Shown: positions 7,446 to 37,308 of the stretch, piece after piece
Layout of the letters: the number at the start of each line of letters is the position of its first letter
How positions within the stretch are numbered: the stretch's first letter is position 1
Source of the DNA: Arachnia propionica
GTDB lineage: Bacteria; Actinomycetota; Actinomycetes; Propionibacteriales; Propionibacteriaceae
DNA: 44,334 nt
Direction: 5' to 3'
Assembly (NCBI RefSeq): GCF_003932785.1
Contig: NZ_RQYT01000024.1
Span: forward strand, 1 to 44,334
Notes under the pieces: generated by a model
What the model saw: only the letters and a program-made list of their open reading frames with translations
Databases searched by the model: none
What the model was told of the DNA's origin: nothing
Translations under genes and position numbers: made by a program

Positions 7446-7465
7446 CCGCCCGGTCCACGGCAGGG

Positions 7466-7570
7466 TTCGCCTGCCCTGGGTGCGGTTCGCCTGCCTTTTC
7501 GGCGGCTCGCCTGTCAAACGAGACAGGCGAAGTGAAACAGGGCAGGCGTTCTCGACCCAAGGCAGGCGAA
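7466..7570. repeat. Palindromic six-unit repeat array A (3 forward + 3 inverted decamers, 20-bp period)
   Basis: The decamer TTCGCCTGCC occurs at 7466-7475 and 7486-7495, with a variant CTCGCCTGTC at 7506-7515. Then the reverse complement appears as GACAGGCGAA (7522-7531), GGCAGGCGTT (7541-7550) and GGCAGGCGAA (7561-7570). Units are about 20 bases apart and the two centre units are 16 apart, forming a perfect 9-bp hairpin TCGCCTGTC/GACAGGCGA around AAACGA. The ten-base gaps differ. The array lies between the divergent WD40 and nucleotide-sugar dehydrogenase genes. An array of the same design occurs at 35039-35143. Confidence 0.95.
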
Positions 7571-7661
7571 TCCGCGGTGAGGCGGGGCCTCGGGGCCGGA
7601 CGGGGGCGTCCACGACAGAGGGACCCGGCCACGTCAAGGAACGACGACGGGCGCGCATGGG

Positions 7662-31723: not shown

Positions 31724-34119
31724 AACGACCCGCCCTCAGCCGCCAGCTGTACTCGTTCGGGATGTTCCTGGCAGTGAGTGTCCTCTGTGGACTGCTGCTG
31801 TCGGGTCTGGCCGTGCCGGGGGCAGCGCTGTTGGCAGCCAGCACGAAGCTCGCCTCGGACTCCATCCAGTACCTCCCGGCCGAGCTGGAGACCCCGCCGC
31901 AGGCGGAGCGTTCCCGCGTCCTCATGGCTGATGGGTCGGAGCTCGCGAAGTTCTACGACGACAACCGCGTCTACAAGCCACTGGCGGAGATCGCCGACAT
32001 CATGAAGAAGGCACAGATCGCCATCGAGGACCACCGCTTCTACGAGCACGGTGCCATCGACGTCCAGGGTCTGGGGCGCGCGGTGTTCAAGAACCTGTTC
32101 GGTGACAGCCAGGGCGCCTCGACCCTCACCCAGCAGTACGTGAAGCTGGTACAGGTCGACGCGGCGAAGGCCCGCGGCGACCAGGAAGGGGTGCAGGCCG
32201 CCCAGGCCCCCACCATCGAGCGGAAGATCCGCGAGATGCGTTACGCCATGGCCATCGAGAAGAAGAAGACCAAGGACGAGATCCTCGAGGGCTACCTCAA
32301 CATCGCCTACTACGGCGATCAGGCCTACGGGGTTGAGGCGGCAGCCCATCACTACTGGGGAACGACGGCAGCGGAGCTGACCCTGGACCAGGCGGCGATG
32401 CTGGCGGGGATCGTGCAGAACCCGAACGCCTACAACCCGGCGAAGTACCCGGAGAAGGCGATGGAGCGCCGCAACCACGTGCTGAACCGGATGGCGCAGC
32501 TCAACATCATCACCAAGGAGGAGGCCCAGGCCGCCTCGGAGGTGGTCTTCGACCCGAGCAAGATCCAGCGCACCCCCAACGGCTGTGTGGCCTCCCCGTT
32601 CCCGGTGCTGTGCGACTACGTCTACCGCACCCTCATCTCGGACAAGATGCCCACGTTGGGGTCGACCCCTGAGGATCGCAAGAACCTGTTGTTCCGTGGG
32701 GGCCTGACCATCCAGACCCTCATCGACCCGAAGGCGCAGGCCGACGCGGAGGCGGCGGTGGCGGCGGTTGTCGCCCCCACCGACCCGGTGTGGGGTGGCA
32801 CGGTGCTCATCCAGCCGTCGACGGGGCTCATCGTGGCGATGGCGCAGAGCCGCACGAAGCTGGGCAACGAGGCTGGCCAGACCTTCTACAACGTCAACGT
32901 GGAGACGGACATGGGCGGCATCGAGGGATTCCAGGCGGGGTCCACCTTCAAGCCCTTCGTCGTGGCGGCGGCACTGGACCAGGGCATGTCCCCCGGAAAA
33001 ACGATCTACGACTCCCCCGAACGGCTCGACGTGGCGGGGATGAGGATGCGCTTCAAGGACTGCAACGGCTCGTTCACGTGGACGGATGCCAACTGGAAGC
33101 CGAAGAACTACGACAAGGGCTGGGGCCCGATCGACATGGTCAAGGCCACCGCGAAGTCCGTCAACACCTATTTCATCCAGCTGGAGGCCGCGGTGGGGAT
33201 CTGCAACTCCATCGACATGGCTCAGCGGCTGGGGGTGAAGCTGGCCTCGGGTCAGGACATGCGCTCCGAGGCAAGTTTCCCGTCGTGGGTGCTCGGCACC
33301 TCGGACATCACCCCACTCTCGATGGCGGAGGCCTACGCGACCTTCGCCAACCGGGGGGTCCACTGTGACCCGATCATCCTGCAAAGCGTCACGGCGCGGG
33401 ACGGCTCCCCCATCGACGTGCCCTCCGCGAACTGCCAGGAGGTCCTCAGGCCCGAGGTCGCGGACGGCGTCAACCACGTGTTGCAGTCCGTCATGCAGGG
33501 TGGGGGCACGGGCTCCATCGCGCGGCTGCACGGCGTCGCCGACCAGGCGGGAAAGACCGGTACCACCGACAGCGCCAAGGCCGTGTTCTTCGCCGGGTAC
33601 ACCCCGAACATGGCCGGGGTGGCCTACGTCGCGGTGGACACCAGCGCCGAGTACTGGGAGGGACGCAACCAGAGCATCGACAAACTGGTCACCGGCGCTG
33701 GCGTCCAACTCCAGGGTTCCGGCGGTAAGGACGCAGGCACGATCTGGAAAAAGGCGATGACCACCGCCTTGGCAAACATCGAGTCCGGGTCCTTCACCCG
33801 GCCCACGGACAAAGTGCTCGAGGGCGAGAAGGTGCCGATCCCGAATGTGAGTGGCATGAGCTACGAGCAGGCGAAGATCGCCCTGGAGGATGCCGGCTTC
33901 ATCACGGCCAAGAGCTACACCTTCGATGCCGCGCCCAACGGCCACTACCTGGGCAGGACCTCCCCCAGCAAGGAGGCCGCGCGGGGCTCGACGGTGTTCC
34001 TGGTGTTCTCGAGGGGCGCGAAACCGCCGGAGCAGCCGACGGTCGTGGGCGAGGGGACCACTCCGCCACCGCAGCCCGAGCAGCCCGGCACCGACCCGCC
34101 GCCGCAGGAGGATGAGTGA
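31720..34119 (+). CDS. Class A penicillin-binding protein (GT51 + transpeptidase + PASTA)
   Basis: This bifunctional peptidoglycan synthase has 799 residues, anchored by one N-terminal helix (about residues 13-38). The GT51 glycosyltransferase domain has the catalytic glutamate in AIEDHRFYEHGAID (about E103), with STLTQQYVK. The transpeptidase domain has GSTFKP (S408, K411), SVN (S480) and KTGTTD (K612). A single PASTA domain (about residues 703-770; VPIPNVSGMSYEQAKIALEDAGF) and a proline-rich tail end the protein. I place the start at 31720 from the -10 spacing and the ATGA junction with metS. A GTGA overlap couples it to the metallophosphoesterase. Confidence 0.94.
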   Translation: MKRPALSRQLYSFGMFLAVSVLCGLLLSGLAVPGAALLAASTKLASDSIQYLPAELETPPQAERSRVLMADGSELAKFYDDNRVYKPLAEIADIMKKAQIAIEDHRFYEHGAIDVQGLGRAVFKNLFGDSQGASTLTQQYVKLVQVDAAKARGDQEGVQAAQAPTIERKIREMRYAMAIEKKKTKDEILEGYLNIAYYGDQAYGVEAAAHHYWGTTAAELTLDQAAMLAGIVQNPNAYNPAKYPEKAMERRNHVLNRMAQLNIITKEEAQAASEVVFDPSKIQRTPNGCVASPFPVLCDYVYRTLISDKMPTLGSTPEDRKNLLFRGGLTIQTLIDPKAQADAEAAVAAVVAPTDPVWGGTVLIQPSTGLIVAMAQSRTKLGNEAGQTFYNVNVETDMGGIEGFQAGSTFKPFVVAAALDQGMSPGKTIYDSPERLDVAGMRMRFKDCNGSFTWTDANWKPKNYDKGWGPIDMVKATAKSVNTYFIQLEAAVGICNSIDMAQRLGVKLASGQDMRSEASFPSWVLGTSDITPLSMAEAYATFANRGVHCDPIILQSVTARDGSPIDVPSANCQEVLRPEVADGVNHVLQSVMQGGGTGSIARLHGVADQAGKTGTTDSAKAVFFAGYTPNMAGVAYVAVDTSAEYWEGRNQSIDKLVTGAGVQLQGSGGKDAGTIWKKAMTTALANIESGSFTRPTDKVLEGEKVPIPNVSGMSYEQAKIALEDAGFITAKSYTFDAAPNGHYLGRTSPSKEAARGSTVFLVFSRGAKPPEQPTVVGEGTTPPPQPEQPGTDPPPQEDE

Positions 34120-35018
34120 GGCGGGTTGCCCGGCTGACCGCCGCTGTGGCCGCGGTCGGCGCCGCCTGCTTCGCGTGGGGGCTGGCGGAGGCGACGATGT
34201 TCCGGGTGCGGCGCGTCACCGCGCCGGTGCTGCCGACCGATGGTGAGCCGCTGCGGGTGCTGCACATCTCGGACCTGCACCTGCTGCCCTCCCAGGAGTT
34301 GAAGCTGAACTTCCTGCGCGCCCTGGCGGATCTGGAACCGGATCTGATCATCACGACGGGGGACAACATCTCCAGTGATGCCGCGATCCTGCCGCTGATG
34401 TCCGCACTGGGCAGGTTGCAGGACGTGCCGGGTGGTTTCGTCTTCGGCAGCAACGACTTCCACGTCCCGGAGTTCAAGTCGCCGCTGCGCTACGTCCTCA
34501 ACGGGCGTTCGACCCCGAGCGCGGAGCCTCCCGCACGGTTGGCCATCGACCAGCTGCGGGCGGCGTTCACCCGCAGCGGCAGCTGGCGCGACCTCAACGA
34601 GCGGCGGGCCGTCGTCGAGGTGAAGGGCCACCGGATCGAGCTTCGGGGCACGAGCGACGCCCACCACGACCTGGACGACTACTCCGAGGTGGCGGGTCCC
34701 GCAGCCGACGGCGTCGATCTCAGCCTGGGTGTCACGCACGCCCCGTACAGGAGGATCCTCGACGCGATGACCGACGACGGGGTGGACCTGATCCTCGCGG
34801 GCCACACCCACGGCGGCCAGGTCTGCGTCCCGGGTTACGGCGCCCTGACCACGAACTGCGACATCGACCGTCGCCGCGCGAAGGGCCTGTCGGAGCACCA
34901 CACGGCCACCGGAAGGTCATGGCTGCACGTCTCGGCGGGCCTGGGGACCTCCCCGTTCGCGCCGTACCGTTTCGCGTGCCCGCCGGAGGTCACCCTGCTG
35001 ACCCTGGTCCCGGCCTGA
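34116..35018 (+). CDS. Metallophosphoesterase (calcineurin-like)
   Basis: The 300-residue binuclear metallophosphatase has a hydrophobic N-terminus (about residues 8-27; uncleaved anchor or signal). Metal-ligand motifs are in order: HISDLHLLP (D-x-H), TTGDNIS (GD), FGSNDFH (the usual GNHD replaced by GSND), THAPYR and LAGHTHGGQVCVPGYG. The YkuE-like group is often encoded next to class A PBP genes in actinobacteria, but the substrate is not known. The start GTG lies in the PBP stop (GTGA overlap). Confidence 0.88.
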   Translation: MRRVARLTAAVAAVGAACFAWGLAEATMFRVRRVTAPVLPTDGEPLRVLHISDLHLLPSQELKLNFLRALADLEPDLIITTGDNISSDAAILPLMSALGRLQDVPGGFVFGSNDFHVPEFKSPLRYVLNGRSTPSAEPPARLAIDQLRAAFTRSGSWRDLNERRAVVEVKGHRIELRGTSDAHHDLDDYSEVAGPAADGVDLSLGVTHAPYRRILDAMTDDGVDLILAGHTHGGQVCVPGYGALTTNCDIDRRRAKGLSEHHTATGRSWLHVSAGLGTSPFAPYRFACPPEVTLLTLVPA

Positions 35019-35038
35019 CCTACCGCCCACTTGTCGGG

Positions 35039-35143
35039 TTCGCCTGCCTTGGGTCGGAAACGCCTGCCCAATGCCGGTTCGCCTGCCAAAAGAGACAGGC
35101 GAACCGCAGAAATGGCAGGCGAACCGACATCAAGACAGGCGAA
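35039..35143. repeat. Palindromic six-unit repeat array B (3 forward + 3 inverted decamers, 20-bp period)
   Basis: The units are TTCGCCTGCC at 35039-35048, AACGCCTGCC at 35059-35068 and TTCGCCTGCC at 35078-35087, followed by GACAGGCGAA at 35094-35103, GGCAGGCGAA at 35114-35123 and GACAGGCGAA at 35134-35143. The spacing is 20, 19, 16, 20 and 20 bases. The central pair forms a 10-bp hairpin with one mismatch around AAAAGA. The layout equals array A at 7466-7570, and outer gaps resemble each other (TTGGGTCGGA here, CTCGACCCAA inverted there). It lies between two convergent genes and may end transcription there. Confidence 0.95.
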
Positions 35144-35173
35144 CCCATCCAGCGACCAACGGGGGCAACGATC

Positions 35174-36892
35174 TCACCAGGTGAGGCCGGTGCTGATGGG
35201 GAGTTCCCCACCGTCAGCCGTCGGCACGACGACCGGCAGCTTGCCCTTCGGCGCGAAGGCCCCCGTGAGGACCTCGGCCAGCCCCTTGGCGACCACCGGG
35301 CGCGAGGTGTAGGTCGCGACCTTCGCGGCCGCATCGAGCAGCCCGACATCCTGCGGCAGGCCGACCGCCACCGCGACAACCTTCCGCCCCGCGCCCACCA
35401 GGGCCTCGACCAGCTGCTTCTGCGCCGGATGAGCGGTCACACCGTCGGTGAGCACGACGACGACCGCTGCCCGACCAGCGGCCTGGACCGCAGCGTCGAT
35501 CTGCTGCTGGCTCGGGTCCACACCGACCGGGACGAAGTCCGAACCACCGCCCAGCTGAGCGGTCAACTCCTTGCCGAGCCTCTCATGATGACCGACGACG
35601 ACGGCCCCCGCCTGGCTGAGGGGCAGGACCCCGTCGTTGTGCACGACGGTGACACCGCCGCGGGCCGCCGCCTCGGCGACGCGCCGCGAGGTGTCGTCGT
35701 TGATCCCTCGCAGGCCCCAGGCATCGGGCAGGAAGTCCGCCGTCGGCAGGTACCGCTTGGCCCGCAGGATCCGCTTGACCTTGACATGGATGTCATCGGC
35801 GCTGAGCCGACCGTCGCGGATCGCCGCATGGATCGCCTCGATCGCCGCGACCGGGTCCGCCGAGTCATGGAGCTGATCCGCCCCGGCCTCCAGCGCCCGC
35901 ACCGCCAGCTCGCCGTCGCCGTGGAGGGCGCGCAGTGCGGGATCCGCGAGGGAATCGGTGACGACGACTCCGGAGAACTGCAGCTGGCCCCGCAGGATGT
36001 CACCGATGATGGTCCGGCTGAGCGACGCGGGGGTGCCGGAGGGATCCAGCCCCACAGCGACGATGTGCCCGACCTGGATGATCTCCACGCCTGAGGCCAG
36101 CGCCTTGAACACCGCCCCCTCCCGGGCGTCCCATTCCTCACGGGTGCGCTCCGAGGTCGGCAGACCGTTGTCCCCGACGGTGACGTCCCCCGCTCCGGGG
36201 AACATGCGCACCGCGGCAAGTTGGACCGCGCCACGGCTTGCCCCACCCTCATCGACGCGGGCCCGGGCGGTGACGAGCTCCGGGGTACCGCCGTAGACCT
36301 GGGTGCCGAGCACCGGATTGTTCGGGTTGGAGGAGACGTCAGCCCTGACCCCGAACCAGGTGTTGATTCCCAGGTTGAGGGCCTCCTTGGGCTGGGTGTC
36401 GTTGAGCCCCCATCCCTGGAAGCGCAACCCCTCGTGGGCACCGAGGGCCATCGGTTCGGGGAACTCGGTGACGGGGATCCCCGCATCGACCAGACCGCTC
36501 AGATGTCCCTCCCAGACCACCTGGAGGGGGACGCCGCCTCGCGCCTGCGCCGCGCGCTGCAGATCATTGGTGAAGTTGAGGACGGCGCGGGTGCTGGTGA
36601 ACTGTCCCGCATCTGGCCTGAGGATGACACCACCGAAACGGTGTCGACGCAGCACCCCGGCAGGGGTGGCCTCCCCGTAGAGCTTCGTGTTCCGGGAATC
36701 GGCGGACCGGGCGCTGCGCCCGTGGACGGGCTGGAGGAAGAGCTGACGGATCTTCTGGTCCAGGCTGAGCGAGTTCACCAGCTGTTCATAGGGCTCGACG
36801 TAGGCGTTGGCGCGGCTGGGCCAGGCGATGGCGGCTGCGGCAAGTGCTCCAGCGCCGCTGCCGAGCAGCGCCCGTCGTGAGAGTCGGGACAT
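35174..36892 (-). CDS. Tat-exported GH3-family protein, probably catalytically impaired
   Basis: A twin-arginine signal (SRRALLGSGAGALAAAAIAW, ending in SRANA) directs export of this 572-residue protein. The GH3 barrel aligns with NagZ-type beta-N-acetylglucosaminidases and retains the nucleophile in GVVVTDS (D313). The KHFPGHGD signature, however, is VRMFPGAGD (F231-D236), and the following DSHxGLP is GDNGLP. The lysine, both signature histidines and the acid/base histidine are therefore gone. A GH3 C-terminal domain (about residues 390-565) follows. It may be a binding pseudoenzyme in the cell wall or act on an altered substrate. The ATG at 36892 has AAGGAG 6 bases upstream. Confidence 0.82.
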   Translation of the reverse strand: MSRLSRRALLGSGAGALAAAAIAWPSRANAYVEPYEQLVNSLSLDQKIRQLFLQPVHGRSARSADSRNTKLYGEATPAGVLRRHRFGGVILRPDAGQFTSTRAVLNFTNDLQRAAQARGGVPLQVVWEGHLSGLVDAGIPVTEFPEPMALGAHEGLRFQGWGLNDTQPKEALNLGINTWFGVRADVSSNPNNPVLGTQVYGGTPELVTARARVDEGGASRGAVQLAAVRMFPGAGDVTVGDNGLPTSERTREEWDAREGAVFKALASGVEIIQVGHIVAVGLDPSGTPASLSRTIIGDILRGQLQFSGVVVTDSLADPALRALHGDGELAVRALEAGADQLHDSADPVAAIEAIHAAIRDGRLSADDIHVKVKRILRAKRYLPTADFLPDAWGLRGINDDTSRRVAEAAARGGVTVVHNDGVLPLSQAGAVVVGHHERLGKELTAQLGGGSDFVPVGVDPSQQQIDAAVQAAGRAAVVVVLTDGVTAHPAQKQLVEALVGAGRKVVAVAVGLPQDVGLLDAAAKVATYTSRPVVAKGLAEVLTGAFAPKGKLPVVVPTADGGELPISTGLTW

Positions 36893-37308
36893 GATCCACT
36901 CCTTCGTTGGTCGTTGGGCCTGCATGGAACAGACCTCCGGATCCCCCCCAGAGATACTGACTCCTCGATCCTTCACGTCCCCAAGATATTTGAAAAGAAA
37001 ACTAACCTTTCGGTGGACACCTGCCGGACAAAACGCTCATTCAGCGTGTTCATCTCCTGATCGAGAAGGGCTTTCACACTCCCCCAACGGGGACCCCGCC
37101 ATCCCGGGACGGAATGGCCACCCCTCTTCCGCTTCACCAACCCCGACCACCAACCCTCCTTCGAGGACGCCACGCAGAGCATCGGCCTCCTGACCCAGCC
37201 GGGCGGGGCGATGGTACGGGTCGCCCGCCACAGCGAGGACACCGGTTCGTGGCTGACCGTGCCCGCTGACGGATAAGGTTGAGGCTGGAGAGAGGAGGGA
37301 GGATCTCG
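36893..37308. other. Intergenic region between GH3 gene and lacI-type gene, with AT-rich island
   Basis: This 416-base gap separates two divergently transcribed genes. It contains an unusually AT-rich stretch (about 36983-37010) that probably holds the GH3 promoter (TATCTT on the minus strand). The right half (37061-37276) holds an open frame without a start, listed separately. A TAAGGT -10-like box (37274-37279) precedes the lacI-type gene. Confidence 0.5.
37061..37276 (+). pseudogene. Possible gene remnant: 71-codon C-terminal frame without a start
   Basis: Between TGA at 37058 and TAA at 37274 a frame runs that ends in WPPLFRFTNPDHQPSFEDAT, IGLLTQPGGAMVRVARHSED and TGSWLTVPADG. From the codon for W at about 37115 onward nearly every third base is G or C, as in the real genes here. 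There is no ATG or GTG in frame upstream, so it looks like the 3' end of a deleted gene. I cannot name the family. Confidence 0.4.

Follow-up and report, generated by a model that had tools for sequence, protein, structure and literature searches.

Array B of Arachnia propionica as a probable copy of a dispersed mirrored repeat, with an AbiEi/DUF559-type gene as its candidate partner in trans

What kind of element is the row of short mirrored repeats, here called array B, that lies between two convergent open reading frames in the window, i.e. the whole analysed stretch of 44,334 nucleotides from Arachnia propionica? Array B spans 35037-35146 and consists of three 12-bp units followed by three inverted ones at a period of about 20 bp, with start-to-start steps of 20, 19, 18 (over the centre), 20 and 20. 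A crude gene caller places it in a convergent gap and a second array of the window, array A, in a divergent one, in agreement with an earlier note on this DNA. The features are listed below, with the units named in the orientation of the repeat family to which they belong.

7460..7577, plus strand: array A, by consensus fit the same element as B, central loop inverted
34116..35018, plus strand: upstream convergent ORF of 300 aa, ending 18 bp before array B; by eye, we take it to be metallophosphoesterase-like
35032..35149, minus strand: array B, full 118-bp family footprint (ungapped consensus fit; R1 model match of 123.5 bits)
35037..35048, plus strand: unit R3, outer, GGTTCGCCTGCC (unit search)
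35057..35068, plus strand: unit R2, the family's variant, GAAACGCCTGCC, which is CAGGCGTTTC in family orientation
35076..35087, plus strand: unit R1, inner, GGTTCGCCTGCC (unit search)
35086..35095, minus strand: centre, 10 bp separating the 8-bp unit cores, TCTCTTTTGG in family orientation
35094..35105, minus strand: unit L1, inner, GGTTCGCCTGTC (unit search)
35114..35125, minus strand: unit L2, GGTTCGCCTGCC (unit search)
35134..35145, minus strand: unit L3, outer left in family orientation, GGTTCGCCTGTC (unit search)
35174..36976, minus strand: downstream convergent ORF of 600 aa, its stop 28 bp past array B; presumably glycoside-hydrolase-3-like, judged by eye

The three-plus-three mirrored layout that the earlier note had described is borne out by these unit coordinates, by a detector of mirrored 8-mer pairs and by folding. 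The detector, which is strict enough to miss some true arrays of relatives (L180, L193 at 8 bases), picked out just arrays A and B in the 44-kb window and nothing in five shuffled versions of it. As RNA, array B folds at -78.9 kcal/mol versus -41.3 ± 3.5 kcal/mol in shuffles (z -10.7); as DNA, its z against shuffles is -8.9. Such a strong fold between convergent stop codons would suit an ordinary bidirectional terminator or an mRNA 3′ structure, as would the matching gaps in the sister species (G034) and in genome G010, which by reading hold no array and instead carry other short inverted repeats. Yet there is no T-run terminator at the array, and no Rfam family matched anywhere in the window.

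Genome-wide searches point to a repeat family. BLAST with array B gave 54 matches, equal to 40 places, in the 3.49-Mb genome that the window comes from (G000). A covariance model trained on 41 copies gave 91 matches there, often the two strands of one place, and the covariance model matches listed add nine places, so that the family occupies at least 49. When the copies were aligned, as the earlier note had proposed, 48 of them (40 own and eight from G034) fitted one asymmetric 118-bp consensus ungapped; 49 rows had been extracted by unit spacing, and L079 was left out for its poor fit. The arms hold from about two to six or more units, their length changing by 20-bp steps. The repeats are dispersed, palindromic and, by the crude gene caller, mostly intergenic. 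That caller assigned both neighbours for 35 of 47 own arrays, giving 10 convergent, 17 co-directional and 8 divergent gaps, and the latter two classes again speak against terminators. Of ten loci with an exact 12-mer match beyond the first BLAST list, nine are arrays that are short, broken or weaker, and the tenth is a lone unit; at L082 1919, a perfect unit stands without any surrounding array. Array B had no match in a plasmid collection, nor did its two-unit pattern in viral contigs.

The asymmetry of the consensus lies in the second right-hand unit, which is the variant CAGGCGTTTC, and in the gap preceding it, which is close to GTGAAAGAAGG. This variant was the anchor of the fit (up to two mismatches), making its constancy partly a product of construction; still, it is present in 36 of 41 own rows picked without that anchor, and two of the five remaining rows, L037 and array B, had been read in the wrong orientation. 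In the consensus fit, array A lies on the plus strand and array B on the minus strand. Since both share the ungapped consensus, they descend from one element; on their sequences, A and B are this element in opposite orientations, and the earlier view of B as an independent copy has to be given up. The outer-gap sequence TTGGGTCGG, which B shares with the inverted outer gap of A, is real, and it is explained by the reversal of the same element rather than by pairing between gaps.

Which part of the repeat is maintained? Among the 40 own copies, agreement with the majority is 95.9% in unit columns versus 79.7% in gap columns. Four orthologous pairs from G000 and G034, picked by similarity and thus by a choice that favours conserved units, differ at 4 of 192 unit sites versus 43 of 244 gap sites. 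Base pairing behaves differently from unit sequence. The outer gaps do pair in the fold of array B itself, as the earlier note had suggested, but family-wide an arm pairs with its own partner no better than with another copy's arm. Only one of 31 pairs had changed on both sides, a value reached by 485 of 500 shuffles. All 40 own copies have a T-T mismatch in the middle helix, a constancy to which the anchor may again contribute. Among relatives whose unit is YGCTGGCCTTG (13 sequences, of which one was left out because of a gap), pairing with the own partner is better than with others for one helix, a level reached by 33 of 5000 shuffles, and worse for the outer gaps, a weak signal. On balance, units that are more conserved than gaps, with pairing not kept, fit recognition of the units by a protein as sites in double-stranded DNA. 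An RNA or terminator function was ruled against by the lack of covariation, of a T-run and of an Rfam family, and we consider it very unlikely that array B is an ordinary terminator or mRNA 3′ structure; terminator use at single sites is possible.

Several copies carry peculiarities of their own. Judged by a simple distance criterion, 5 of 40 own copies and 3 of 8 G034 copies carry their central 10 bp in the opposite orientation to the arms, as if the centre could flip; these are the array at 7460-7577 of the window, L058, L059, L083 and, narrowly, L037, plus L009, L017 and L018 in G034. A second subfamily in G034 (L112, L113, L118, L030) has the inner units AATTGCCTG/CAGGCAATT; by reading, L112, L113 and L118 show long perfect palindromic centres with matching changes in both gaps, where other copies are mismatched. 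A very long array in G034 (L122) has outer units that look decayed. In the own genome, a second palindromic repeat of about 78 bp (GGTCACGAATCGCCG ... CGGCGATTCGTGACC) often adjoins longer arrays (L043, L045, L053, L056); by reading, the gap matching that of array B holds in G010 a short hairpin resembling this repeat, and in G034 one that resembles it less.

The arrays come and go between sister species. The divergent gap of array A holds a different, 7+4 array in G034, and one G034 array is without counterpart at the matching G000 site. At a site that is 96% identical between the two genomes, 33 bp of the central hairpin are missing in G034. Compared with 48 G000 loci in alignments read by eye, 8 of 27 G034 loci match an occupied site. 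In the own genome, an open frame at L080 enters an array and stops inside it (...PERFRLS, stop at 1520), and the sequence at L114 of G034 that matches the end of this frame is identical there; the two together look as if an array had taken the place of an old gene end. Two own arrays, L081 1-92 and L080 near 1540, are interrupted at or near contig ends by other DNA, which from the look of its ends we take to be insertion sequences.

Short, mirrored and dispersed elements recall MITEs, and the arrays might be the MITE of a conventional DDE transposon. However, across 52 arrays the direct repeats at the borders are no better than shuffled ones, leaving no sign of a target-site duplication, and the ten loci of exact 12-mer matches, inspected by reading, revealed no insertion sequence with such ends. 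An origin of this kind is scarcely credible. Insertion into terminator stems was considered when some flanks looked complementary (L034) and then dropped, as the own flanks of the 52 arrays pair worse than shuffled ones.

Beyond the sister species, the first covariance model matched 16 of 39 genomes of the genus. Other Arachnia species have the same array layout with unit sequences of their own: YGCTGGCCTTG in G002, G004, G005 and G062, GGCGCCTGCC in G029 and GACGCCTGCC in G022. A second covariance model gave 42, 39, 28 and 54 matches in G002, G004, G005 and G062, respectively; G000 and G034 matched more weakly, and 8 of the 14 genomes searched had no match. Among the matches listed for the four relatives, a hand tally of at least 74 distinct places on closed or near-closed chromosomes with rounded lengths puts 65 in the dnaA half (G062 25/25, G004 15/17, G002 15/18, G005 10/14), the sites being partly orthologous and the bias in G005 alone not significant. 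Array orientation is also biased by replication arm in 51 of 74 places among the same matches, with the same partial orthology.

This clustering, together with the conservation of units beyond gaps and a unit spacing near two helical turns, could mean that selection on the host keeps the arrays as platforms with multiple binding sites for a chromosome-organising or regulatory protein. A chromosome-organising role, raised in the earlier note, is possible. Against host selection as the origin of the arrays, the copies have an arbitrary asymmetric sequence in common and were therefore spread by copying, sites appear and disappear between sister species, the unit sequence varies from species to species, and the partly orthologous sites are not independent witnesses to the dnaA-half bias. 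Overall, binding platforms are an unlikely account, and one in which the gene described below would be just another bound locus.

If the arrays are spread by copying, is there an enzyme tied to them? The familiar example of dispersed bacterial palindromes with a dedicated enzyme gene is REP-RAYT, whose repeats carry a GTAG or CGTC tag at the base of the hairpin. In the array B region (35025-35158), neither strand has either tag. The suggestion of a REP/BIME-like family stands in that the repeats are short, dispersed, palindromic, mostly intergenic and present genome-wide and are, in relatives, linked to a repeat-flanked gene; it fails with respect to the Y1 transposase. The proposed REP-associated transposase (Pfam PF01797) is absent from G000, G034, G010 and G035, as judged by a search that was positive in 5 of 14 control genomes. 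As this defining enzyme was not found, the family is not classed as REP-RAYT.

A different gene emerged next to the arrays of relatives. It encodes about 300 aa with an AbiEi-type DNA-binding N-terminus and a DUF559-type, nuclease-like C-terminus. In G034, two arrays enclose such a gene of 305 aa (L030 1738-2655). A homologue in G002, 58% identical to the G034 protein, lies between two arrays together with other genes (L174), and G004 and G005 have theirs at the same locus; the frame reads through in G002 and G004 and is split over two frames in G005 (L175). G024 and G022 have homologues with arrays on both sides, made of GACGCCCGCCCTA-like and GACGCCTGCCTTG-like units at a 19-20-bp period, and in G024 the array adjoining the gene is the sole place matched by the first covariance model. 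Thus, in four Arachnia lineages the gene is flanked on both sides by the lineage's own arrays, at different chromosomal sites. In five regions that were read, array pairs also enclose other, ordinary and unrelated genes; an array pair alone therefore does not mark a mobile unit.

The domain assignment varies in strength along the protein. Pfam AbiEi_4 is above cut-off in G024 and G022 and below it in G034 and G002, and the PADLOC AbiEi model reached down to 4e-19 in the two proteins scanned. Pfam DUF559 (PF04480) is above cut-off in L212, L214 and L215 of 10 proteins scanned and in none of the four from Arachnia, so the nuclease reading of the latter rests on alignment: E193, D226 and D239-G240 in the C-terminal half are invariant in 14 aligned homologues. 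A structure predicted from the single sequence had a pLDDT of 36, and a sequence search against solved structures returned one chance-level match (E 0.15).

Neither the window nor the viral contigs contain a homologue. In the own genome, 100 sequences (322,756 bases, some places counted repeatedly) gave no match at E 0.01, and 40 contig stretches, 20 of them from the same set, gave a best E of 0.053 over 23 aa. At the site that holds the gene in G034, the own-genome array lies less than 160 bases from the start of contig C131 (L081), and an assembly break may therefore hide the partner gene.

The four Arachnia genes were reached through array searches and are biased accordingly, leaving 11 distant homologues as the cases free of that bias. 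These were obtained from a plasmid collection that includes large replicons, by protein searches seeded with the G002 protein and then with five homologues, and all were scored (six Tsukamurella, three Arthrobacter, one Collinsella and one Nonomuraea). For each gene, the 300 bp upstream were aligned with the 300 bp downstream in both directions. Nine of the 11 scored 24 to 72.5, versus a maximum of 17.5 and a median near 10 in 98 control genes; L209 (Tsukamurella) and L216 (Nonomuraea) are the exceptions without shared flanks. With the four Arachnia lineages added, 13 of 15 lie above all controls (p 8e-9). Of the controls, 74 were annotated genes hand-picked from the same records, 16 of them from the regions of the tested genes and with three ends shortened to stay within the stretch, and 24 were ORFs of the window. 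Local hairpins were also stronger in the flanks of the tested genes than in 64 control flanks (median 12.75 versus 8.5, p 4e-7), with 12 of 30 flanks above the controls' 95th percentile, so that some flanks lack a strong hairpin.

The flanking repeats of the 13 different genes are mutually dissimilar, with scores of at most 13, that value being within Arachnia. Five of the nine flanking repeats were searched against the plasmid collection (E 0.01), and all five are dispersed, at 18 places in 7 records, 21 in 1, 7 in 1, 12 in 6 and 40 in 2; these numbers may include both strands of a palindromic site, and a few of the places lie under annotated genes. Each was confined to records of the same organism name, Tsukamurella being represented by one accession series. 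The paralogues L211 and L212 of a Tsukamurella strain each have a dispersed repeat of their own.

These results bear on a simpler account, in which the gene is an autoregulated AbiEi-type regulator whose operator repeats became duplicated so as to surround it and were dispersed through host recombination or by some unrelated transposase, with the nuclease playing no part. AbiEi antitoxins bind inverted repeats in their own promoters and autoregulate through them (PMC7319586), and arrays do lie upstream of the gene. Yet the same repeat is also found downstream in those 13 of 15 genes, the five searched repeats are dispersed and differ from gene to gene, and a nuclease-like C-terminus is fused to the regulator. 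The same two features, the C-terminal domain and the dispersal of the repeats over the genome, set the proteins apart from AbiE type IV toxin-antitoxin systems, with which they have the AbiEi-type N-terminal domain in common; no AbiEii toxin is named in the annotation of the neighbours of eight plasmid-collection homologues. We therefore regard a mere autoregulator as rather improbable.

The explanation that we consider probable takes array B as a non-autonomous member of a dispersed repeat family whose partner in trans is an AbiEi/DUF559-type gene, the nuclease of which would spread the arrays. The repeat is a row of direct 12-14-bp units with a period of about 20 bp facing its own mirror image over a short loop. 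The N-terminal AbiEi-type domain may bind the units cooperatively, two helical turns apart and on one face of the helix, allowing the nuclease domain to cut at or near the mirrored centre. Repair or re-insertion would then copy arrays into new intergenic sites, and unit sequence and protein would be expected to change together.

A broader proposition, to which we give an even chance, is that the orphan AbiEi/DUF559 proteins found in Actinomycetota, whose present annotation is antitoxin or unknown, serve as the enzymes in a second REP-RAYT-like world that is independent of the first. Each would be a sequence-specific nuclease that spreads its own flanking mirrored arrays and co-evolves with them, and array B would be one of about fifty copies in a genus whose arrays are gathered around the replication origin. 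The likeness to REP/RAYT comprises dispersed intergenic palindromic repeats and a partner gene flanked by its own repeat, a different repeat class adjoining each RAYT gene (PMC3116915). The differences are a partner of AbiEi/DUF559 type instead of a Y1 HUH transposase and arrays with two to six or more units per arm at a 19-20-bp period. Searches of the openly licensed literature, preprints excluded, turned up no earlier report linking an AbiEi/DUF559 gene to dispersed palindromic repeats.

Other repeats share single traits with the arrays. ERIC and other intergenic palindromic repeats are imperfect palindromes of about 110-130 bp between genes, a description that also covers the present family, which differs in its tandem units and its linked nuclease-type gene. 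Eukaryotic Foldback transposons likewise have inverted arms made of short tandem repeats, whereas the arrays described here are bacterial, far smaller and associated with another partner protein.

Should the proposed partnership be correct, small DNA-binding nuclease genes that may spread their flanking repeats would form a possible new counterpart of REP/RAYT. This would be a second pairing of an enzyme with a palindrome, built on an unrelated nuclease, such that partnerships of this sort would have arisen more than once. It would also assign a function to proteins whose current annotation is orphan antitoxin or DUF559, and the co-evolution of unit and DNA-binding domain would be directly testable, as each gene comes with its presumed target sequence alongside. 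Tsukamurella tyrosinosolvens offers a natural test bed, with one repeat family per gene: a single strain carries six paralogues (L208, L209, L211, L212, L214, L215), five of which have a flanking repeat of their own.
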